A stretch of 64,000 nt of DNA, from assembly GCF_907165195.1 (NCBI RefSeq), contig NZ_OU015584.1, positions 1,116,001 to 1,180,000 on the forward strand, given 5' to 3'. The position numbers were made by a program, and so were the translations under genes. Below are positions 159-56,429 of the stretch, one piece after another; the first letter of the stretch is position 1, and every line of letters begins with the position of its first letter. Below the pieces are notes generated by a model. It did not search any database, had not been told where the DNA came from, and saw only the letters and a program-made list of their open reading frames with translations. The DNA comes from Parvicella tangerina (lineage in GTDB: Bacteria; Bacteroidota; Bacteroidia; Flavobacteriales_D; Parvicellaceae).

Positions 159-2939
159 ATGAACTGCTTAAAAAACATCCTGTATTTACTAGTTGGTATA
201 CTTATGCTGAATAGTTCTGCTTTTGCTCAGGTTGAATACACCTCAACGGGTAGTGGAGGAGCCTATTCACTGGCCATACCTGCAAACATTAATGCATTAA
301 CTCCTGGCTTGTCGTTTACGTTTAAAGCAAATCATGTGAGTGCCAATCCATCTACGCTTAATGTAAATGGTTTAGGAGCCGTTACAATCATGAAAGGTGT
401 TTCAACTAATCTCGATGTCAATGATATTCTAGCTGGTCAGGTGGTAACAGTGGTATATGATGGTACGAACTTCCAAATGACTTCAGCTCCTGGGAGCATC
501 GGAGCAAGCGGAAGCGACTCCGTTATTGCAGATGCTGATAGTGATACAGAGATCAATGTGGAAGCAGCCGCAGATCAAGATGTGATCCATTTTAATCTGG
601 GAGATAACGCTGGTTATCCAGCAGCTGAGTATTTTACGATGATTGGACCGAGGTTGGAAGTGATTAATTCTGGGAATTCGGTGTTTTTTGGAGCTGGAGC
701 TGGAGCAAATGATAATTTGGCATCCAATGGCAATGCTTTTATCGGAACTAATGCGGGTAACTCAAATCTTGATGGTCAGAATAATGTGGCAGTCGGATTA
801 GATGCAATGCAGGCGCATACATCAGGTTATAATAATACAGCAATTGGACGAGCCGCTATGTATTCTACAACCACAGGAACTCATAATACGGCATTGGGTA
901 GTGATGTCCTTTATTTGAATACAACAGGAACTTCGAATGTTGGTGCTGGTTATCAAGCACTCGGCTACAACATAACAGGCAGCGGTAATGTAGCACTAGG
1001 ACAATTTGCTCTAAGAACAAATTCTGCTGGGAATAACGGAACAGCTATCGGTCATAACGCGATGCAATACGCAAATGATAATGTTGCGTCATTTAATAAT
1101 GAAAATGTGGCATTGGGGTTTAGTGCACTTCGTGGATCGATAACGGCTGCTGCCAATACAGGGAACGGAAATGTAGCAGTTGGATATCAGACCTTACTGA
1201 ATTTTACCACAGCTCAATATAATGTTGCTGTAGGATCAAACTCACTTTTCACCAATGATACTGGGGATGATAATATAGCAGTAGGTGCATATTCTTTATA
1301 CAGTAATACATCTGGAGTCCGCAATGTTGCCATGGGAAGAAATGCATTGCAAATGAACACCACAGGAAATTATAATGTGGGTATTGGATATCAAGCGTTA
1401 GCATTAACAACAGGTTCTAACAACACTGCCGTTGGTTATGTTTCTGGATCAAATATAACATCGGGAATCGGTAACACTTTTTTAGGTTATCGAGTAGGTA
1501 TTGGAAATACCACTGGAGCAAATAACACTATTGTAGGAACCGAATCTGGGGACGTAAATGCCACGGGAAGTAACAATGTGTTGATCGGCTATAATGCTGA
1601 ATTGTCTGCAAATGGTCTGAACAATGCCATTGCAATCGGTTCTAATGCAGAAGTAGGAGCTGATAACTCACTTGTTTTAGGGTCAATTAATGGGGTAAAC
1701 GGAGCCACTGCAGATACAAAAGTAGGTATAGGCACTACGGTCCCAGCTGTAAGTCTTGACGTAGCTGGCACAGATGCTATTAAAGTCCCTGTAGGTACAA
1801 CTATTCAACGTCCGGGAACTCCAACTAAGGGAATGATTCGCTTCAATGATGATGTTATTAGTTACGAAGCTTATGATGGAACTTCATGGGTGAGTCTGGG
1901 AGGTGCTGGAGGTGACTTCTTTGCAGATGGATCAGTTCCAATGACTGGTGGTCTTGATATGAATAACAATTACATTGTTAACCTGAATGACCCTATAAAT
2001 CCGCAGGATGCAGCTACGATGAACTATGTAGATAATACGATTTCAGGTTGGCTAACTGATTATATAAGTAGATGGGGTGATTCTATGCAGGGAGATTTGG
2101 ATATGACAAGTAACTACATAACTAACCTGGCTGATCCTACAGCAGCTCAAGATGCAGCGACTAAGAATTATGTTGATTTGGCCGTAAGTGGTGCTGGTGA
2201 CTTTTTTGCAGATGGATCCGTAGCCATGACAGGTAACTTCCAATCGGGAGGTAACTTCATTTCAAACGATGGAGGAAATGAAGGGATTGGAATTGCTACA
2301 AATGGAGAAGTTAGCGCAACACCTGCAACTACGGGAGCTGGTAATATAGCCTTTAGAAGTTATGGTGATATTTGGACACAAGGACAAGCAACAGGTATTT
2401 ATTTCACGAACGCCAATATTGGAATTACTGGAAACGATGGAAATGCTGGAGGAATGCACTTCAGGACTTCTGGTTCAGAGAGATTGACCATATTGGCTGG
2501 AGGTGCGGTAGGAATCGGAACTTCAACTCCAGCAGAAAAATTAGAAGTGGCGGGAAACATTTCTATTCAGAATGATGCTCAACGTTTTGTTCGCGGAGGA
2601 TCAGGTGGAGATATGATCCCAGTTGCCTATGGTGTAATCAATGATGGGGTGCTACAAACAAATGCTTCTGAAGGAGATATTACCGTGCAAAAAATGGCAA
2701 TTGGTCATTATAGATTGACGTATAATGGTTCAAGAACTTTTACTGGGCTAGGAGAGTTTGCACTAAACTTGACAGTCGCAGACCAGACTTCAGGAGGTAA
2801 TGCAATGATGGCTAACTATAATTATTTTGGTCAAACTGCTGGTAGCGAGCATGTGGATATCTACATTTGGGATTTGATGGGAGGAGGTAGTCCGAATCCT
2901 ACAGATGGAGTTGTTACATTTGAATTATTAGTTAAATAA
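159..2939 (+). CDS. Secreted repeat adhesin with YadA-head/tail-fibre-like repeats
   Basis: This 926-residue protein begins with a clear signal peptide (about residues 1-24, ending SSAFAQ). Residues about 180-540 hold roughly 22-residue repeats built on N-x-A-V/I-G and NTTG motifs, as in trimeric autotransporter heads and phage-like tail fibres of Bacteroidota. Two later copies of a unit with FFADGSV and QDAATKNYVD follow near residues 590-680, then a GIGTSTPAEKLEVAG segment typical of the stem before an endosialidase-chaperone region. No T9SS sorting domain is visible at its own C-terminus. The stop overlaps the next ATG by one base (TAATG), so translation is likely coupled to the T9SS type B protein downstream. 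Inferred role: a long surface fibre, probably trimeric. Ligand unknown. Confidence 0.75.
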   Translation: MNCLKNILYLLVGILMLNSSAFAQVEYTSTGSGGAYSLAIPANINALTPGLSFTFKANHVSANPSTLNVNGLGAVTIMKGVSTNLDVNDILAGQVVTVVYDGTNFQMTSAPGSIGASGSDSVIADADSDTEINVEAAADQDVIHFNLGDNAGYPAAEYFTMIGPRLEVINSGNSVFFGAGAGANDNLASNGNAFIGTNAGNSNLDGQNNVAVGLDAMQAHTSGYNNTAIGRAAMYSTTTGTHNTALGSDVLYLNTTGTSNVGAGYQALGYNITGSGNVALGQFALRTNSAGNNGTAIGHNAMQYANDNVASFNNENVALGFSALRGSITAAANTGNGNVAVGYQTLLNFTTAQYNVAVGSNSLFTNDTGDDNIAVGAYSLYSNTSGVRNVAMGRNALQMNTTGNYNVGIGYQALALTTGSNNTAVGYVSGSNITSGIGNTFLGYRVGIGNTTGANNTIVGTESGDVNATGSNNVLIGYNAELSANGLNNAIAIGSNAEVGADNSLVLGSINGVNGATADTKVGIGTTVPAVSLDVAGTDAIKVPVGTTIQRPGTPTKGMIRFNDDVISYEAYDGTSWVSLGGAGGDFFADGSVPMTGGLDMNNNYIVNLNDPINPQDAATMNYVDNTISGWLTDYISRWGDSMQGDLDMTSNYITNLADPTAAQDAATKNYVDLAVSGAGDFFADGSVAMTGNFQSGGNFISNDGGNEGIGIATNGEVSATPATTGAGNIAFRSYGDIWTQGQATGIYFTNANIGITGNDGNAGGMHFRTSGSERLTILAGGAVGIGTSTPAEKLEVAGNISIQNDAQRFVRGGSGGDMIPVAYGVINDGVLQTNASEGDITVQKMAIGHYRLTYNGSRTFTGLGEFALNLTVADQTSGGNAMMANYNYFGQTAGSEHVDIYIWDLMGGGSPNPTDGVVTFELLVK

Positions 2940-3454
2940 TGAGATATATACTAAATATAGTTTTTGTACTTTCGATAGCATTAAGCTACGGTCAAAATAC
3001 TGCTGAGCGTTACGAAATCAGTTCCGCAGGGGCAGAAGCAGTCACACCAACTGGAGGAAATATTTCATTCACCGTAGGTGGACTAACTGTTGAAACAGCG
3101 ACTACACCATCAATGAGTATTACGCAAGGGTTTGAGCAGCCGACTGATGATGCAGAAGGTACGTTCACCAATGTTAAACCTCCCAATGCTTTTTCTCCGG
3201 ATGGTGATGGCGTTAATGATACTTGGATCATTGACCTTCCAACGAATTTAGTCGATATTGTAGACCTTACAATCGTTAATAGATGGGGGGATCAAATTGC
3301 CTTTGTGGAAGATTATAATAACACCACGAATGTCTGGGACGGTACTTACGATGCCTCTGGAGAACCAGTTGTGGCGGGTACTTACTTTTACATTATGGAA
3401 GCCAGAGAGGTTGGAGGAAAGAAGACTGGCTGGATTCAAGTAGTGAGAAACTAG
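2939..3454 (+). CDS. Short protein dominated by a T9SS type B (gliding-motility-associated) sorting domain
   Basis: The protein has 171 residues. A signal peptide (about 1-18, ending SYGQ) is followed by about 60 residues with the pattern SFTVGGL...ITQGFEQP, and then a type B sorting domain from about residue 80: NAFSPDGDGVNDTW, then NRWGD and GTYFYIMEA, ending at GWIQVVRN. Family knowledge: this domain sends proteins through the type IX secretion system. There is almost no passenger. The start overlaps the adhesin stop by one base. I infer that it partners the adhesin, which lacks its own sorting domain. It could instead be an independent small surface protein. The sorting-domain call is strong; the partnership is a hypothesis. 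Confidence 0.85.
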   Translation: MRYILNIVFVLSIALSYGQNTAERYEISSAGAEAVTPTGGNISFTVGGLTVETATTPSMSITQGFEQPTDDAEGTFTNVKPPNAFSPDGDGVNDTWIIDLPTNLVDIVDLTIVNRWGDQIAFVEDYNNTTNVWDGTYDASGEPVVAGTYFYIMEAREVGGKKTGWIQVVRN

Positions 3455-7045: not shown

Positions 7046-8104
7046 TTATTTAGTAACTACAAACTTTTTAGTTAAAGTACCGTTGCTTGTCTGTACAGTG
7101 TAGAAATATTTTCCAGCAGTGTAGTCAGCAAGGTTGATCGTTTCAACATACTCTCCTGTTGTTTTGTTACCACTATTGATAACTTCAACAACTCTACCAG
7201 TAGCATCAATGATCGTGATTGTTACTTCATCAGAAGAATTCTCAAGACCATAGTTGATGTTGATCACATCATTAGCTGGGTTAGGGTATGCACTCATTTT
7301 AAGACCATTTAGGTAACCGTTTGATTCGATTCCTACGTTCTGATCTCCAATAACCGGGAAAATCGCCACATTCGCATTTAGAGAACCTCCGAAAGCGAAG
7401 TTAGTAACATACCAGTTACCTCCAACATTGTGGAATGCATATTCATAACCGTCTCCGTCACCATCCCCTAAAAGACCTAGTGTATCTCCTTTACCAGCAA
7501 GGTCATTCGAGTTAACAGCAACAGCAAAATCAGTTCCTGTAACACTAGCAGGTGATGTTAGGGTTACTACACTAAAATCTGGGAACCAAGTAGTATCAAC
7601 AGCTGATAACAAAATTGTTCCAGATCCTAAAGATGAGTTTGGACCAGGTGAGTTAAGAGCTGGGCTTCCAGAACCATTGTCATTGTAAGCCTTGTTATCT
7701 GCCATAGAATATACCGTTACGGTAGCAGAAGATGTTACATCATCATTGTCTTTAGCAACTGCCAAAAACAGAACTTCGTCAATGTCAAAGTTTAGTTCAT
7801 CTTCATTGAAATAACCTTGAGCACAAGTGTTGTAGTTGTCAACATTAGAACCAAAGATGTATCCACCACCTAAGTATCCATACTGAGTAACTCCACCTGT
7901 AATCCCTGCAAATTCAGGAGCAAAAGAGGTTCCCGTCATCCATCCAGCTGTATCTGTAGCTGCTTTTGGAGATAACCCTTTCTCAAGTTTCATCGTTCTC
8001 TGAATCTGAATTTTACCACTCAGGTTCAAAGGTTCTACATTTTGTGCAAACATCGCACTAGTAGCAAACAAAGCAGTCGCTACTAAAGAGTAAACTTTTT
8101 TCAT
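7046..8104 (-). CDS. T9SS type A cargo protein of unknown function
   Basis: A 352-residue protein with a signal peptide (about 1-20, ending AMFAQ) and a C-terminal type A sorting domain from about residue 272: MSAYPNPANDVININY, then IDATGRVVE and ending FVVTK. The passenger is beta-rich with a GDGDGDGYEY acidic stretch near residue 215, and resembles no enzyme I recognise. Family knowledge says the domain directs secretion through the type IX system, with removal or attachment at the cell surface. It stands alone between the terminator at 6997-7024 and a short upstream gap, so it is probably monocistronic. Confidence 0.8.
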   Translation of the reverse strand: MKKVYSLVATALFATSAMFAQNVEPLNLSGKIQIQRTMKLEKGLSPKAATDTAGWMTGTSFAPEFAGITGGVTQYGYLGGGYIFGSNVDNYNTCAQGYFNEDELNFDIDEVLFLAVAKDNDDVTSSATVTVYSMADNKAYNDNGSGSPALNSPGPNSSLGSGTILLSAVDTTWFPDFSVVTLTSPASVTGTDFAVAVNSNDLAGKGDTLGLLGDGDGDGYEYAFHNVGGNWYVTNFAFGGSLNANVAIFPVIGDQNVGIESNGYLNGLKMSAYPNPANDVININYGLENSSDEVTITIIDATGRVVEVINSGNKTTGEYVETINLADYTAGKYFYTVQTSNGTLTKKFVVTK

Positions 8105-49168: not shown

Positions 49169-49816
49169 TTATTCATTTGGTTTTAACTCCTGAGAAGAGA
49201 GGTAAATTTTGAATCCAAGAATACTTAGCAGGGTGGGTAGGCTTGATTCTAAAAAATGTCCAATTTCCATAGCGATAAGATAGAAGTTTAATTTCGTATC
49301 GTGAGACCATTGAAAGAAATAGCAACTAAAAACGAGTCCCATAGACAATGTTCCCAAGCCGTATAGTAAGATGGTGTAAGGGAGGGTATTGTTTGAGGGA
49401 TAGATCAATCTCAGGATCAAATGGGATAGAAAACCATATAATAGGATAAAAATACCAGAAGAGACATACTTCAGCAGATAAATCGTGTTGGAACTTGCGT
49501 TACCCAAGATAGCTTTCATCCAGCTGTCCGTAGGGTCAACGTATTTGTCTGGTGACCCTCCTTGTTCAATAAGGTATTGATAGTCCATTCTCCAGGAAAG
49601 GTTATGAAAAACGTAGTCTCTGACAAAATCCAGGTAAAAAAGGAAAACGATCAGGATGCACGTTAGAATGATTCTGGTGATTTTATTATGGTCTGATGAA
49701 ATGCCAAGGTTCAGACTTGCATCTCTCAATCTCTTGTTCCAGAAAACTATGAAGAGGTAAGTGATTGCCCCTACGAGAAGAACAGCAATAATCCCAATGT
49801 AGTTATTGTGAAGCAT
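49169..49816 (-). CDS. Exosortase-associated membrane protein
   Basis: A 215-residue protein with about five membrane helices, no soluble domain and no catalytic motif. It overlaps the exosortase gene by 14 bases and is the last gene of a three-gene operon. Bacteroidota exosortase systems often carry a partner membrane protein beside the sortase, and this fits in position and topology. Its exact family (for example the XrtF- or XrtX-type partners) is not certain from sequence alone. I infer a role with the sortase. Confidence 0.65.
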
Positions 49817-50357
49817 GCGTTGTCTTAAGATTGATTTCTGAGAATTTCTGAACCCAGATGTACCACATCAGAAAAATGATCCCATAAATAAGGATCTGAA
49901 ACGTAACATTGTGATTGAAGTCCAGGTATTCTGGCCATTTAGCTTCAATAATGGTTAGTGCAGATACTCTGATGGCGTTGGCTAGGTGGATAATGATAAA
50001 TCCAGCAGGTATGAACCATAACTTGTGTTTCCATTTCCCAGGAAAAGCAAGAATAAAAATCCCAAACAACCCCATCACTTTTATTCCATTACACGGTTCA
50101 CCGATCCAAGTTCCATGAGTAGGACCAAAATCTGTCAGCTTCGTAATGACTAAGTCGCGTGTTAATTCAATGGTTGTTGAATAGCCAAAGAGTTCTGTGA
50201 AAAAGTTCGCGTGCCTAGCTAAGATCAGAGATACTTTGTGTTCAATATCGCCAGGAAAGAGATGGTAAAGATTTTTGTAAAGCGCAAACCAGGAAACCAA
50301 TAAAACGGTGAAAATAAAGATAAACCGCACGAAGGGGTTTTTCCAGAGATCTTTCAT
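49803..50357 (-). CDS. Exosortase/archaeosortase-family cysteine transpeptidase
   Basis: A 184-residue integral membrane protein with the exosortase catalytic set: Cys89 in WIGEPCNGIKVMGLFGIFIL, Arg130 in LANAIRVSALTII and a His near 149 in NHNVTFQ. Exosortases cut C-terminal sorting tails in the inner membrane and hand substrates on for anchoring or export. At 184 residues it is the single-domain size seen in Bacteroidota types such as XrtF and XrtX. It begins two bases after the short substrate gene and overlaps the partner membrane gene. Confidence 0.85.
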   Translation of the reverse strand: MKDLWKNPFVRFIFIFTVLLVSWFALYKNLYHLFPGDIEHKVSLILARHANFFTELFGYSTTIELTRDLVITKLTDFGPTHGTWIGEPCNGIKVMGLFGIFILAFPGKWKHKLWFIPAGFIIIHLANAIRVSALTIIEAKWPEYLDFNHNVTFQILIYGIIFLMWYIWVQKFSEINLKTTHASQ

Positions 50358-50359
50358 TT

Positions 50360-50602
50360 TTATGCCTCTGAATCTTCTTTGGTCTTGTAGAAATCGTAAG
50401 CCTTCTTACTGCCATAAGCAGCTCCAAGCGCAATTAAAACGCTGATTCCTCCATCCACAGGTATGCAAGGAGGAGGCCAACAAGGAGGATTAGATCCTCC
50501 AGAAGGTCCGCCAGGAGGAGTTCCAGCAGGTTGTGCATGCAATGCCGCTGAAGAGATCAACAATAGCACGAACAAACTTGTTTTTAGAATAAAATTTCTC
50601 AT
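50360..50602 (-). CDS. Short exosortase substrate with PID-CTERM-like tail
   Basis: An 80-residue protein. Signal peptide about 1-24 (ending ALHAQ), a short Pro/Gly-rich mature stretch (PAGTPPGGPSGGSNPP), and a C-terminal sorting tail: CWPPPCIPVDGG at about 41-52, a hydrophobic helix (ISVLIALGAAYG) and a Lys-rich end (KKAYDFYK). The PVDGG motif, helix and basic tail fit the PID-CTERM class. The mature part left after cleavage would be only about 25 residues with two cysteines. It sits directly upstream of the exosortase gene, so it is probably its own substrate. Confidence 0.8.
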   Translation of the reverse strand: MRNFILKTSLFVLLLISSAALHAQPAGTPPGGPSGGSNPPCWPPPCIPVDGGISVLIALGAAYGSKKAYDFYKTKEDSEA

Positions 50603-50610
50603 TTCAAGGG

Positions 50611-50618
50611 CAAATATA
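50611..50618 (-). promoter_or_regulatory. -7 box TATATTTG for the exosortase operon
   Basis: On the minus strand the box reads TATATTTG, a perfect consensus, eight bases before the ATG of the substrate gene (50602). The leader would be only a few bases. Confidence 0.5.
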
Positions 50619-50810: not shown

Positions 50811-53144
50811 TTGGAGCAAGAAATTCAAAAGGAGGAGAAGTTATTTGATCTGGGTAGTTACAAATACGTGCTCAAGGCGCTTCTTAAATGGTGGTATGTT
50901 ATTGTGTTGAGCACCTTGCTTTTGGCTACTTTCGGGGTCTTTAGGGCTTATGTTAAGCCAAAAACAACAACTTCAAGATTGCAGCTATTGCTTCAGTCAG
51001 GTGATGTCTACAATTATCAAAGTTCGATTTACAAGAATGTTGGTTATTTGTATACCGATATATCCAACCAAATTCGTGTTTTAAAATCTTATGACCTCAT
51101 CGAAAAGGTAGTCAGGAAGCTGGATCTAAACGTTTCCTATTACATCGTTGGAAGACTAAAAACACAAGAAGTATTTTATGGGGTTCCGTTCAAGATTACC
51201 GTTGTCGATTTTAATCGGAGCCTAGAAGGGAAAAGATTATCGTTCAAAGTGTTAAATGGAGAACAGTTTGAGGTTGAGTTTGACGCAGGTGGAGAACATC
51301 GGGTCATGAAGCATGAGTTTAATCAAGATATAATAACGCCTTATTATATTATCAATGTTTCTTCATACCCAGGAGTTGAGGTTGCTACCGCTAATTATGA
51401 GGTGGAGTTTCATAAAGACGCATACTGGGTTAAAAAGATTCAAAATAATCTTCAGATTTCGAACGAAGACTACACTTCAGTTTTGACGCTTACCTTAACG
51501 GATGAAATAGGCGATCGTTCAACTTTGATTTTGGATTCACTAGCGTCTGAGTACTTGCATTATACTTTGCAAAGTCAGTTTGATGTGAACGAAAACACTA
51601 TGGTTTATATCAATAAACAGATAGAGGACGTCACCACATTAATGGACTCTATAGAGTCTGAATATGATACACTTCGTGATGAAAATAATGTGCTTAATTT
51701 GAATCTGGAGACGGAGAAACTGTTTGAAACGTTGTTTTCGCTTAGGAAGAATAAAACGGTAACAAAGGAAAAAATAACGACCCTTAATAATTTGGAAGCT
51801 TTCATTCAAAACTCTAGTGACAAGAATCTATTACCTCCTTCGGTCTTTAAGCTTGCTGACGATAATTATCTTTCCGAAGCCCTTTCGGATTTTTACAAGA
51901 AACAAATTCAGATGAATGAAATGAAAAGTAAGGTAAAAGAGGATCATCAAGGTTATCAGGGTTTCGTGGAGAGCCTATCCTTGTTGAAGTCGGATATTTT
52001 ACTATACATTTCAAATGCTAGAGATGCATTCAAGGGAGTTGTCGAACAATTAGATGCTGAAATTGCAATGGTTGAAAACCAGCTCAGAGGAGTTCCAAAA
52101 ACTCAAAGGGATTTTAGTGATGTTGGACGGAACCTAAACGTTAATGAAAAGTTGTATATGTACCTACTCGAGAAAAGAGCAAATACGTATATCGCAAGGT
52201 CGGGGATCATACCTAGCACTAAAGTTATTGAAAAGGCAAGGGTTGTTAGTGTGAATAAGGGAGATGTGATAACTGAAGGAGCTGTTTTTGGAGGGGTTGG
52301 ACTTGGTCTTGGAGTTTTATTGTGTTTAGGTATTTATTTACTTTTTGGAACCTTTGAAAGTGTAAAGGAGCTCAAGGAGGCAACTAAGCTACCTGTTCTA
52401 GGGGCTATTCCTTTTAAGAAAGGTTTAGATAGCGTTGATGATTCAGGGTCCAAGTCGAATATGTTGGAGTCGCTTAGAGGGATTAGGACTAGTTTGAGTT
52501 ACTCTGGAGGAGATCATTGTAAGGTTTTCATGGTGTCCTCTGTGCACCCTGGGGAAGGTAAAACGTTTGTGTCTGGTAGTCTTGCCTCTATGTATGCACA
52601 ATCTGGAAAAAAGACATTGCTGATTGATTTTGATCTTCACAAACCGCGAGTGCATAGATTGTTAAAATTGGATAACACAAAAGGAAACTCATCTTACCTT
52701 TCAAGACAGAGTGACATAGAAGAAGTCTTGCAGTCGGTAAATGAGAATATTGATGTCTTGACCGCTGGTCCAGTGCCTCCAAATCCATCTGAGCTAGTGC
52801 TTTCGAAAAGAGTTGAGGAACTAATTAGTTATGGAAAACAGAATTATGATGTTGTTTTTGTGGATACTCCTCCTGTTGGTTTAATCAGCGATGGGGTAGT
52901 GTTGATCCAACAAGTAGATTTTGCTTTGTTTGTGTTGAATACAAAAATGGCGAACAAAAAGGGGGTTAAATATCTTGAAGAAATAATTGCAGACACAAAG
53001 GTAAAGCATAAAGGGCTTATCCTAAACGGAGTTCGGACTAAGAAATGGAGGTACTACTATGGTAAGTACGGTTACGGATATGGCTATGGCTACGGATATG
53101 GGTATGGGTATGGCTACGGCTACGGAAAGAGGGACGATGAATAG
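50811..53144 (+). CDS. Wzc-like polysaccharide tyrosine autokinase
   Basis: A 777-residue protein with a Wzz domain (helix at about 25-45), a long periplasmic coiled coil, a second helix near 490-510, then a BY-kinase domain: Walker A SSVHPGEGKT (about 574-584), Walker A' LLIDFDLHKPR and Walker B VVFVDTPPVG. These control chain length and export of surface polysaccharide. The tail YYYGK followed by ten Tyr-Gly units and KRDDE replaces the usual tyrosine cluster. The start is the TTG at 50811. First gene of the polysaccharide locus; no Wza-type export protein lies in the window. Confidence 0.9.
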   Translation: MEQEIQKEEKLFDLGSYKYVLKALLKWWYVIVLSTLLLATFGVFRAYVKPKTTTSRLQLLLQSGDVYNYQSSIYKNVGYLYTDISNQIRVLKSYDLIEKVVRKLDLNVSYYIVGRLKTQEVFYGVPFKITVVDFNRSLEGKRLSFKVLNGEQFEVEFDAGGEHRVMKHEFNQDIITPYYIINVSSYPGVEVATANYEVEFHKDAYWVKKIQNNLQISNEDYTSVLTLTLTDEIGDRSTLILDSLASEYLHYTLQSQFDVNENTMVYINKQIEDVTTLMDSIESEYDTLRDENNVLNLNLETEKLFETLFSLRKNKTVTKEKITTLNNLEAFIQNSSDKNLLPPSVFKLADDNYLSEALSDFYKKQIQMNEMKSKVKEDHQGYQGFVESLSLLKSDILLYISNARDAFKGVVEQLDAEIAMVENQLRGVPKTQRDFSDVGRNLNVNEKLYMYLLEKRANTYIARSGIIPSTKVIEKARVVSVNKGDVITEGAVFGGVGLGLGVLLCLGIYLLFGTFESVKELKEATKLPVLGAIPFKKGLDSVDDSGSKSNMLESLRGIRTSLSYSGGDHCKVFMVSSVHPGEGKTFVSGSLASMYAQSGKKTLLIDFDLHKPRVHRLLKLDNTKGNSSYLSRQSDIEEVLQSVNENIDVLTAGPVPPNPSELVLSKRVEELISYGKQNYDVVFVDTPPVGLISDGVVLIQQVDFALFVLNTKMANKKGVKYLEEIIADTKVKHKGLILNGVRTKKWRYYYGKYGYGYGYGYGYGYGYGYGYGKRDDE
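53067..53126 (+). repeat. Ten Tyr-Gly codon pairs at the kinase C-terminus
   Basis: Sixty bases encode ten YG pairs, using TAC or TAT and GGT, GGA, GGC or GGG. The mixed codons show this is not a fresh slippage product; the dipeptide appears kept at the protein level. Confidence 0.85.
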
Positions 53145-53297: not shown

Positions 53298-56200
53298 ATG
53301 ATTAGATCAATTTATATAAAAGCAACCCTAAATGCTTCGCTAGTCATAATGTTTGTGTTTATGGGATGGTTAACTTGTTATTCTCAGGATACCGGACCAG
53401 GAGGGGTTGGAACCGCAGCTAATACTGCATTCTGGTTGGACGCTGGAAGCTTAGGTCTGGGGGATGGAGCTGCTGTGAGTTCTTGGGCTGATCAGGGTGG
53501 TAACGGTAATGATTTTTCTCAAAGTGTTGGAGGAAGCCAGCCTACGTATCACCTGAGTGGTTCGATTAACGGACTTCCTACAGTTGATTTCGGTGGGGCA
53601 CATTTCTTGGAGTCTGGAGCAATCCCTGAGTTAGATTCTGATGAAATATCCTTTTTTATCGTTTCAAAGAGTAATATTAACATGACTAATGGGAGCGTTC
53701 GTTGTTTAATAAATAATGAAACTGATTTGACAAACCAAGCTTGGAAATCTTTTTATTATCGTGCGAGTAGCGTGGATAGTTACATGGTGCGGCATGGTAA
53801 GGATGCTTCGTTGGGTAATGTCATATCATCTTCCAAATTTCCAACTTCTGAAATTCAAACGCCTAAAATTCTTTCGCAATTTTGGACTGCCAGTAACAAT
53901 ATTAACGGTAAGATAGATGGTTCTACGAACGCAGGTCAATCCGGTGCTGACCTAAGTGGTTGGACACATACCAAAACCACCATTGGATCGCAATTTGGGT
54001 CAATAAGATTTTTTAATGGTGAAATTGCTGAAGTGATTGTGTTTGATGAAGTTGTGAATGCCGCTCAAGAGATTATTATCTACAATTATCTGGGGGCGAA
54101 ATATAACATTTCATTGGATGCCAACGCTCACTACACCGCAGGGGCGACCCATGGAGCTGAGGTTGCAGGGATAGGTCGTGAAGATGCGAGTAATATACAC
54201 AATTCGGCACAGGGTTCTGGTATTGTTGCTGTCACTTCTGCCGGCATTACCTCTGATGGCGCTTATCTCTTATGGGGACATGATGAGGGTGGTTTAACAA
54301 CGACCGCAGTAAATACTCCAGCGGCTTACGCTGCCACTGGGGGAACAAGATTGGTGCAGGAATGGAAAGTTTCTGAAGTTTCTGAAGTAGGGGATATTAC
54401 ACTGGAGTTCGATTTGACGGGTATTACTTTTGGAAAGGATGATCAGTATGAACTGTTGGTTGATGAAGATGGTGATGGCGATTTTTCTGATGCCATAACG
54501 TATTCAGGAATACCAACAGGGGACATAATTTCATTTAGTTTAACTGCAAATGATCTTGATGATGGCTATTTATTTACAATAGGTAATACTCAGGAAAAAA
54601 TTATAAGCGTGATTGATGGTCAGAACTGGAATGATGTGACGACCTGGAGTTCAGACTTTTTGCCAACTACATTGAATGATGTTATTGTTGATAACGGTCA
54701 TGCGGTAACCGTTTCCGATAACCAATTCTCCTTGGATCTAACGGTAAATGGAACAGGTACTTTAGTGGTGGATAACGGGGCGAACCTTGAGGTTTCAGGA
54801 AATGTTGATTCAGACGGCACTTTTACCTGTAATTCTGGAAGCAAGATCACGTTAAACGGAGCTGTTGCTCAGACCTTAGATTTTGTTGGAACAATTGCAC
54901 TTGATAGTCTTGAAGTAAATAACGCTAATGGGGTAACATTTAATACGGGGTCATTCACGTTTTCGGGAACCTTGTTTCCAACAAGTGGAGATGTAGACTT
55001 CGGAGCGAATAGTGTTACTTTTCTTTCTGACGCAACTGGAACAGCATCAATTGGTCCGATAGGAGGAGGTGTTGCTATAACAATGACTAATGTTACATCT
55101 CAGCGATTTATTGAAGGAGGAGATGCGGGATGGACTGAAGTAGGCTTCCCTTTTGATAATAGCTTTAAGTTAAGTGATTGGGATGATGAGCTTTTTATTA
55201 GTGGACCTGGTGGGACTTTTCTCGATGGCTGTGCTTATGGTAGTGGAGGAAGCTGTTTTACTTCAGTTAAATATTGGGATCCTTCTTTGTCTAAGATGTT
55301 TGGTGTAACCAATGCTGACTCTGCAGTTAATGCGGGTAGAGGATTTGATATTTACTTGGGAGATAACTTGTCAACATTTAGTGCTGCAACAATCTCGACT
55401 ACTAAGAATCTTAACTTGAATGCGAACCCGGCAATTGCAGTTCAGAATGGATGGAACTTTATAGCAAACCCAGTTTTAGCTCCTATTGACTGGAACAATG
55501 TAACCCTTGGAGGTGGAGTAAATAATTATTTTTGGGTTTTTGATGCTGAGGACGGTTGGCAATTTTATGAACCAGGAGGTTCTCCTGAGACTTTCTCTGC
55601 GAATTTGACAGGAGGAATCATTTCCGCGTACCAAGGTATTTGGGTGTTTAATTCAGGTGGAGCCTCTGATGTTACTTTCAATGAAAGCGCAAAGAGTGTG
55701 GGTAGTTCTGATGCGTTCGTAAAGTCTTTGAATGGAAAGGCAAGTATAGAACATAATTGTTTTACCATGAGAATGGAAGATAAACTTTCTCCAACAACAT
55801 TTGGAAAACTCTATATAGATTTTGCGAATGAAAGATCAAATATGCCAAAGTTACCAACGCTTCCAGGTAGTTATAAATCTATTAATCTTTATGCTGATTT
55901 TGAAGGTGAACAATATAGTGTTTTGACTTTGGGGACTTATATTGAGGATTGCATTAGGTTGCCAATAGGAATGGAAGGTGTCTCAGCAGGAGTTTTTAGC
56001 CTTTCATTTGATAACGTACCTAAGGACAGAGAGTTGTACATCGTAAATTATGTAAGTGGCGAAAGAATTAGGGTGACCTCAAAAAGTGATATTGAGATAT
56101 ATTTGACAGAACAGAATAGATCTGCTTTTAAATTACTTGTGTTGAGTAAGTCTGGGGATTGTGAAACAAGTGCTCATGAAGATTTGAATGTAGCGTACAA

Positions 56201-56429
56201 CGATTGGGATGGAATAGTAGTTACAGATTTCAGTAATACTGAGATGGAGGTTCATACGTTTAATGTTTTCGACTTAACAGGAAAACTAATTCTTTCTGAA
56301 AAGAGTGCAGTGGACACGGCTTCAAAATATGTCATTCCAGCAAATCTGTCAGCTGGTTCCTATATTATTGAGGTGAGAAGTGCTTCAGGCATTGTCGGAA
56401 CAGGAAAAGTTGTTGTTACCCAAAATTGA
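53298..56429 (+). CDS. Large T9SS type A cargo with LamG-like domain
   Basis: A 1043-residue protein with a signal peptide (about 1-30, ending CYSQ), then a LamG-like jelly roll (ANTAFWLDAGSLGLGDGAAV, SSWADQGGNGNDFSQ), a further beta-rich middle with INGLPTVDFGG and PNPAIAVQNGWNFIANPV, and a type A sorting domain at about 960-1043 ending VVVTQN. LamG domains often bind glycans, which suits its place inside a polysaccharide locus, but binding is inferred. It has its own strong promoter, so it need not be cotranscribed with the kinase. Confidence 0.8.
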   Translation: MIRSIYIKATLNASLVIMFVFMGWLTCYSQDTGPGGVGTAANTAFWLDAGSLGLGDGAAVSSWADQGGNGNDFSQSVGGSQPTYHLSGSINGLPTVDFGGAHFLESGAIPELDSDEISFFIVSKSNINMTNGSVRCLINNETDLTNQAWKSFYYRASSVDSYMVRHGKDASLGNVISSSKFPTSEIQTPKILSQFWTASNNINGKIDGSTNAGQSGADLSGWTHTKTTIGSQFGSIRFFNGEIAEVIVFDEVVNAAQEIIIYNYLGAKYNISLDANAHYTAGATHGAEVAGIGREDASNIHNSAQGSGIVAVTSAGITSDGAYLLWGHDEGGLTTTAVNTPAAYAATGGTRLVQEWKVSEVSEVGDITLEFDLTGITFGKDDQYELLVDEDGDGDFSDAITYSGIPTGDIISFSLTANDLDDGYLFTIGNTQEKIISVIDGQNWNDVTTWSSDFLPTTLNDVIVDNGHAVTVSDNQFSLDLTVNGTGTLVVDNGANLEVSGNVDSDGTFTCNSGSKITLNGAVAQTLDFVGTIALDSLEVNNANGVTFNTGSFTFSGTLFPTSGDVDFGANSVTFLSDATGTASIGPIGGGVAITMTNVTSQRFIEGGDAGWTEVGFPFDNSFKLSDWDDELFISGPGGTFLDGCAYGSGGSCFTSVKYWDPSLSKMFGVTNADSAVNAGRGFDIYLGDNLSTFSAATISTTKNLNLNANPAIAVQNGWNFIANPVLAPIDWNNVTLGGGVNNYFWVFDAEDGWQFYEPGGSPETFSANLTGGIISAYQGIWVFNSGGASDVTFNESAKSVGSSDAFVKSLNGKASIEHNCFTMRMEDKLSPTTFGKLYIDFANERSNMPKLPTLPGSYKSINLYADFEGEQYSVLTLGTYIEDCIRLPIGMEGVSAGVFSLSFDNVPKDRELYIVNYVSGERIRVTSKSDIEIYLTEQNRSAFKLLVLSKSGDCETSAHEDLNVAYNDWDGIVVTDFSNTEMEVHTFNVFDLTGKLILSEKSAVDTASKYVIPANLSAGSYIIEVRSASGIVGTGKVVVTQN

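Follow-up and report, generated by a model that had tools for sequence, protein, structure and literature searches.

The window analysed here, a stretch of 64,000 nucleotides from the Parvicella tangerina genome (assembly GCF_907165195.1, contig NZ_OU015584.1, positions 1,116,001 to 1,180,000), contains at positions 49169-50602 three open reading frames (ORFs) on the minus strand, which encode an exported precursor of 80 residues (50360..50602), an exosortase of 184 residues (49803..50357), and a partner membrane protein of 215 residues (49169..49816). The substrate and exosortase ORFs are separated by 2 bases, whereas the exosortase and partner ORFs overlap by 14 bases, in line with the first-pass annotation, which had described the locus as a three-gene exosortase operon with its own 80-residue substrate. 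The genome, a single contig of 3,980,026 bases, bears this description out, as it carries one exosortase and one above-cut-off match to the PID-CTERM precursor model. Head-to-head with the operon, on the plus strand, lies a gene for a Wzc-type polysaccharide chain-length/tyrosine autokinase (50811..53144). Because the same gene order recurs across an order of Bacteroidota, the three-gene arrangement reflects more than chance.

The precursor consists of a predicted Sec signal peptide ending at Ala23 (residues 1-23; 50534..50602, minus strand), the stretch QPAGTPPGGPSGGSNPPCWPPPCIPVD, and a presumably removed tail (residues 51-80; 50363..50452, minus strand) composed of a GG pair, a hydrophobic helix, and a Lys-containing end. 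The P-V-D-G-G motif, helix, and Lys-rich end had already been recognized from the sequence, and residues 48-70 of the 80 match the PID-CTERM model (NF046080) with 35.7 bits against a cut-off of 26, which places the precursor in that family. Since signal peptidase I products of Bacteroidetes mostly begin with Gln, which then cyclises (PMC5837995, in part), the mature product is likely to start at Gln24. With a signal peptide ending at Ala23 and a tail starting after Asp50, the payload would be 27 residues (Q24-D50; 50453..50533, minus strand), slightly longer than the approximately 25 first estimated, whereas the two cysteines noted in that estimate are indeed present. They lie within a conserved core, PPCWPPPC (residues 39-46; 50465..50488, minus strand).

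Peptide-sized payloads are conserved among relatives, in keeping with the peptide-like product proposed for Parvicella. In a partly by-eye reading, 54 of 58 exosortase-adjacent substrates yield a mature stretch of 18-29 residues that contains exactly two Cys, the commonest form being CWPPPC, and 55 of the 58 have Gln at +1, the exceptions being L127, L094, and L084; the mature start was set by eye in L090, L089, L098, L094, and L084, and two Gln residues are possible in L092 and L125. By script, 57 substrates could be parsed; 51 were shorter than 40 residues, and 50 of these 51 contained two Cys. The two cysteines are spaced by 4 residues in 33/51 script-parsed short peptides, as CWPPPC or CFPPPC, and by 7 residues in 14/51, in forms such as CDGPFGPVC. 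Across 35 substrates, the second Cys and the Pro two positions before Asp are conserved at 100% and the PPP at 94-97%; these sequences were chosen for a Cys followed by Trp or Phe, so the conservation of the first Cys and of the W/F position is partly a product of the selection. No signal-peptide column in the same 35 sequences exceeds 60% conservation. Four adjacent substrates (L077, L086, L084, and L101) are longer and Cys-rich, with 6-12 Cys before the PID tail. In locus L116 (exosortase at 2550-3110), the upstream ORF has a P-V-S-D-H tail in place of P-I-D-G-G and retains the Cys pair.

The downstream enzyme belongs to the exosortase/archaeosortase superfamily according to both its TIGR04178 score (61.2 bits, cut-off 23) and its Cys-Arg-His set, and it falls in the XrtX/XrtF branch. 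It passes the exosortase F model (TIGR04128, 99.3 bits, cut-off 90); the exosortase X model (NF046081) is the top-scoring exosortase model, though at 150.1 bits it stays under its cut-off of 170. The residues Cys89, Arg130, and His149 had been correctly located by the first-pass annotation, which considered that their loss in relatives would speak against activity; no such loss was seen, as Cys89 is invariant in 66/66 loci and Arg130 and His149 each in the 65/65 loci with residues there, L130 being broken at a contig end before these positions. The AlphaFold2 model of the exosortase has a pLDDT of 93.6. Among solved structures, a profile search gave a best E of 0.11, Foldseek returned no exosortase match at E<=0.001, and VIA-align returned none at Z 8 or more, where a weak or missing match says nothing about the fold. 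The exosortase may act as a sortase-like transpeptidase, which would cleave the tail and attach the product to an acceptor.

The partner membrane protein (AlphaFold2 pLDDT 89.8; no Foldseek match at E<=0.001, which is likewise uninformative on fold) scores 27.3 bits against the XrtX-associated model (NF046082), under the cut-off of 75. When the same model was run on six partners of relatives in the order, L096 scored above the cut-off (114.3), and L102 (74.9), L088 (61.3), L115 (54), L067 (41.4), and L119 (16.9) fell below it. The XrtF-associated model (TIGR04127) did not match the window partner at E<=1 or any protein of the window genome at E<=1e-4, and it gave a single match across 245 genomes of the order. 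Nevertheless, a profile of 43 partner sequences aligned with a profile of 9 XrtF-type partners (two of which were scanned, both passing TIGR04127) over 145 columns with 96.2% and an E of 2.5e-9, compared with 0.6% and 0.3% in control comparisons against the exosortase profile; as judged from these profiles, the window partner and the XrtF-associated protein share distant homology only. The partner gene is present in 64/66 loci, and in 54 of these it lies -80 to +120 bp from the exosortase.

Among 120 genomes of the order (the window's included), PID-CTERM matches occur above the cut-off in 52 and at E<=0.01 in 55, and 54 of these 55 genomes have exactly one match, G114 being the exception. An exosortase occurs in 66/120 genomes, as a single match in all but G030. 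With a profile built on the window enzyme, 66 loci were recovered in 65 genomes, L103 and L130 being pieces of one gene of G030 and G066 not being recovered. The order of the operon, whose conservation had been proposed as a check, is largely maintained: a PID-tailed ORF ends directly upstream of the exosortase in 58/66 loci. A single-copy oddity or chance ORF is ruled out by this recurrence. The eight loci that lack an adjacent substrate are L095, L080, L103 (at a contig end), L117, L091, L097, L079, and L078. In two of them PID-tailed genes lie elsewhere: the genome of L080 (G114) has two PID-tailed Cys-pair genes, one above the cut-off, both far from the exosortase, and that of L079 (G063) has one PID gene about 7 kb away. 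In L091, L097, and L117 (genomes G085, G093, and G087), the end of the preceding gene resembles adenosylhomocysteinase by eye, and G087 also carries an unlinked Cys-rich ORF ending in CTPIDSG (L133). Upstream of the L078 exosortase (7095-7610), a small exported Cys-rich ORF with the tail motif FIPVGN overlaps the exosortase start, possibly representing a further tail type. Of the records that bear a name, the nearest are metagenome-assembled genomes assigned to Flavobacteriales and Crocinitomicaceae. This exosortase also turns up in records (L212, L175, L191, and L195) filed under Candidatus Saccharibacteria or Chryseobacterium gleum, whose contigs are probably wrongly labelled or binned.

In a wider sample of the phylum, PID-CTERM matches were found in 62/392 genomes and an exosortase in 143/392, and one genome (G407) combines a single exosortase match with nine PID-CTERM matches. 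Because one exosortase coexists there with up to nine PID-CTERM matches, the term dedicated, as applied to the Parvicella enzyme at first reading, is appropriate for this lineage and not for the enzyme family. A search of relatives for the same tail returned one per genome in 54/55 genomes of the order and up to nine per genome elsewhere in the phylum. A PID gene lies directly upstream of the exosortase in only 4 of 40 loci hand-picked elsewhere in the phylum, although these were picked partly for having PID genes. In a separate set of PID peptides from 30 other genomes of the phylum, 23 of 30 parsed ORFs give 14-18 residues, such as QPGLPSAPSQAPID, and the Cys pair is absent. By eye, none of the 30 has a Cys in the mature stretch, and 3/30 have a Cys located before the signal peptide. 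This set comprises the best match from each of the 30 best-scoring of 62 PID-CTERM genomes (31 ORFs, 30 parsed) and therefore favours the model consensus. The small payload, which had been singled out as notable, is thus real but not peculiar to the Parvicella genome, being usual among PID-CTERM substrates (NF046080).

A system of this kind is already on record in NCBIfam as XrtX/PID-CTERM (NF046080, NF046081, and NF046082), with which the Parvicella locus shares the PID tail, the top exosortase model, and an XrtX-associated-type partner gene; given that the PID-CTERM model passes while the XrtX and partner models remain under cut-off, the model scores mark the locus as a divergent branch of this recorded kind. 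Compared with most PID loci viewed elsewhere in the phylum, it is distinguished by a single dedicated substrate, the Cys pair, and the head-to-head Wzc. The XrtF system of Flavobacterium (TIGR04128 and TIGR04127; Fjoh_1448 and Fjoh_1449) is similar in that the window exosortase passes the XrtF model and the partners are profile-homologous, but it differs in that the window partner has no TIGR04127 match. A search for a Cys-pair peptide upstream of XrtF-type exosortases covered 12 loci outside the order, of which nine have an FYDP-sharing partner, and found none; the nine loci with an XrtF-type partner had neither a PID nor a Cys-pair peptide before the exosortase. In seven of these nine genomes (L277, L282, L283, L284, L287, L288, and L291), a PID-CTERM match lies apart from the exosortase, in a set picked partly for having such matches, and XrtF-type enzymes may handle PID peptides too. 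Part of a study of F. johnsoniae leaves the substrates of XrtF for future work and describes deletions of xrtF and Fjoh_1449 that reduced sand colonisation and biofilm and abolished zorbs (PMC10936215); this is the phenotype of a relative of the system and not of the Parvicella system itself.

More distant systems provide further points of comparison. PEP-CTERM/EpsH (XrtA) shares the exosortase superfamily and the polysaccharide neighbourhood, but its motif differs, and PEP-CTERM genomes have a median of eight substrates (PMC1569441, in part), in contrast to the one match in the window genome as counted with the PID-CTERM model. In Methylobacillus, disruption of EpsH left the polysaccharide unaffected, according to a passage of the same paper. 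MYXO-CTERM substrates of myxosortase resemble the Parvicella precursor in their tripartite tail and carry an invariant Cys next to the region that is cleaved (PMC11980579, in part), whereas the Parvicella-type peptide has two Cys and myxosortase belongs to an unrelated protease family (CPBP). A literature search found no paper on PID-CTERM or XrtX among the matches listed. As far as this search reached, the conservation of the Cys pair, the head-to-head Wzc, and the profile homology between the partner and XrtF-associated proteins appear to be new observations.

The gene opposite the operon was assigned to the Wzc-type tyrosine autokinases by TIGR01007 (172.6 bits, cut-off 108) and is followed by genes resembling glycosyltransferases and Wzm/Wzt ABC exporters, whose matches remain under the curated cut-offs of individual models; the polysaccharide locus reported next to the operon is thereby confirmed. 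Between Wzc and the polysaccharide genes lies an ORF for a protein of 1043 residues (53298-56429) with a T9SS type A sorting tail (TIGR04183, 25.5 bits, cut-off 23). A Wzc gene stands head-to-head within 1.5 kb of the operon in 51/66 loci. In the other 15, Wzc lies elsewhere in the stretch (3), the contig ends (4), or the gene is missing although at least 1.5 kb of contig is available (8), the genomes of these last eight carrying a Wzc elsewhere. Recent capture of the operon beside a polysaccharide locus can be ruled out on account of the repeated head-to-head arrangement.

At the genome level, with kinship ignored and Wzc counted at 350 bits or more, 59 of the 120 genomes have both, 7 the exosortase only, 7 Wzc only, and 47 neither. 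Five of the exosortase-only genomes (G005, G011, G038, G044, and G054) have a piece of Wzc beside the enzyme at a contig end; of the remaining two, the contig of G027 ends 464 bases upstream, and the exosortase of G066 is not this enzyme. In genus g3, in which several genomes are incomplete, the exosortase occurs in 4/11 genomes, which are the sole g3 carriers of this Wzc (in two, pieces at a contig end). The seven Wzc-only genomes all belong to family f3, where the kinase lies within polysaccharide loci and the exosortase profile found nothing near an equally strong Wzc in the seven stretches examined (L215-L221); a Wzc of this strength therefore does not need the exosortase. Elsewhere in the phylum, the 40 hand-picked exosortase loci included a Wzc match in 4 (102-237 bits) and none in 36.

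Taken together, these data lead us to favour, with a probability of about 0.6, the interpretation that the operon is a dedicated exosortase unit that trims and re-attaches one conserved micro-peptide for a role in building or attaching surface polysaccharide. The precursor would be exported by Sec and cut by signal peptidase I before Gln24, which would be converted to pyroglutamate, while the C-terminal helix would hold the peptide in the inner membrane. Cys89 would then attack the P-V-D-G-G motif with the assistance of Arg130 and His149, and the partner membrane protein would help the exosortase. The helix would be dropped, and the Pro/Gly-containing Cys-pair peptide of about 27 residues would be passed via its new C-terminus to a lipid or glycan acceptor in the envelope. 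Such a transfer has been proposed for exosortases and archaeosortases at large. Enzymes of the exosortase type are believed to be transpeptidases (PMC11980579, in part). With a Wzc-type kinase of polysaccharide export as its conserved neighbour, the operon probably yields a product that helps to assemble or attach surface polysaccharide. In a bolder version, which we hold only tentatively and consider rather improbable, no protein sorting is involved at all, and the doubly capped micro-peptide, with pyroglutamate at one end, a lipid or glycan at the other, and its Cys pair closed or itself modified, would anchor the Wzc-exported polysaccharide in the envelope or cap its end.

The principal alternative is that the exosortase is a general sorter that also processes proteins with tails invisible to the PID model, its small neighbour being one client among others. 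Such a role would fit the finding that, elsewhere in the phylum, as many as nine PID-CTERM matches accompany a single exosortase and only 4 of the 40 hand-picked loci have a PID gene immediately before the enzyme. Even within the order, the two Cys-pair genes of G114 lie far from their exosortase. The first-pass annotation had reasoned that many other genes with the same tail would make the enzyme a general sortase; the window genome instead contains a single one, with next best PID matches of at most 16.6 bits, and one per genome is the rule in the order, which makes a general sorter unlikely here. The 80-residue protein might alternatively stay uncut and carry no payload, belonging to the exosortase/partner complex as a small subunit or as a helix for docking, as would suit its almost fixed gene order with the enzyme (58/66 loci) and the location of its conserved part beside the helix. 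However, the protein has a signal peptide, its basic end is consistent with the three-part tail of a sorting substrate, and in other lineages the motif occurs on several genes away from the enzyme, as is expected of a sorting signal, so that we find a docking role improbable.

A secreted signalling or antimicrobial peptide, for which release from the membrane would be the point of the cleavage, is very improbable. Its size, predicted pyroglutamate cap, and Cys pair would be suitable, and the Cys spacing does differ among relatives; however, the Cys pair 3-7 residues before Asp is kept across families (51/51 short parsed peptides), whereas signals tend to diverge along with their receptors, and the steady neighbour is a polysaccharide kinase. 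The 40 neighbour clusters listed, which were viewed by eye, included no recognisable receptor or immunity gene, though an ABC-transporter cluster recurs in 20 loci.

With only one substrate, and one this small, it would be unusually easy to learn what exosortases attach. As the whole product would comprise about 27 residues, encoded once and beside its enzyme, the attached moiety could come to light in a single intact-mass measurement. Homology with the XrtF-associated protein of F. johnsoniae provides a phenotype to look for, namely adhesion and biofilm, and the Wzc neighbour points to a pathway.

Finally, the sequence before the substrate gene bears on where the operon transcript begins. On the minus strand, TATATTTG (50611..50618), which we take to be a Bacteroidota -7 type box, stands 8 nt before the substrate ATG, and a box of the form TAnnTTTG occurs no more than 60 nt upstream of the substrate start in 44/56 loci compared with 4% of shuffles, the ATG being chosen by a rule made for this analysis. 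The peptide gene is thus probably the first on the transcript, whose leader in the window would be very short. Of the 44 boxed loci, about half have a box that ends no more than 10 nt before the chosen ATG, and a TATATTTG-type box so near the ATG hints at leaderless or near-leaderless transcripts.
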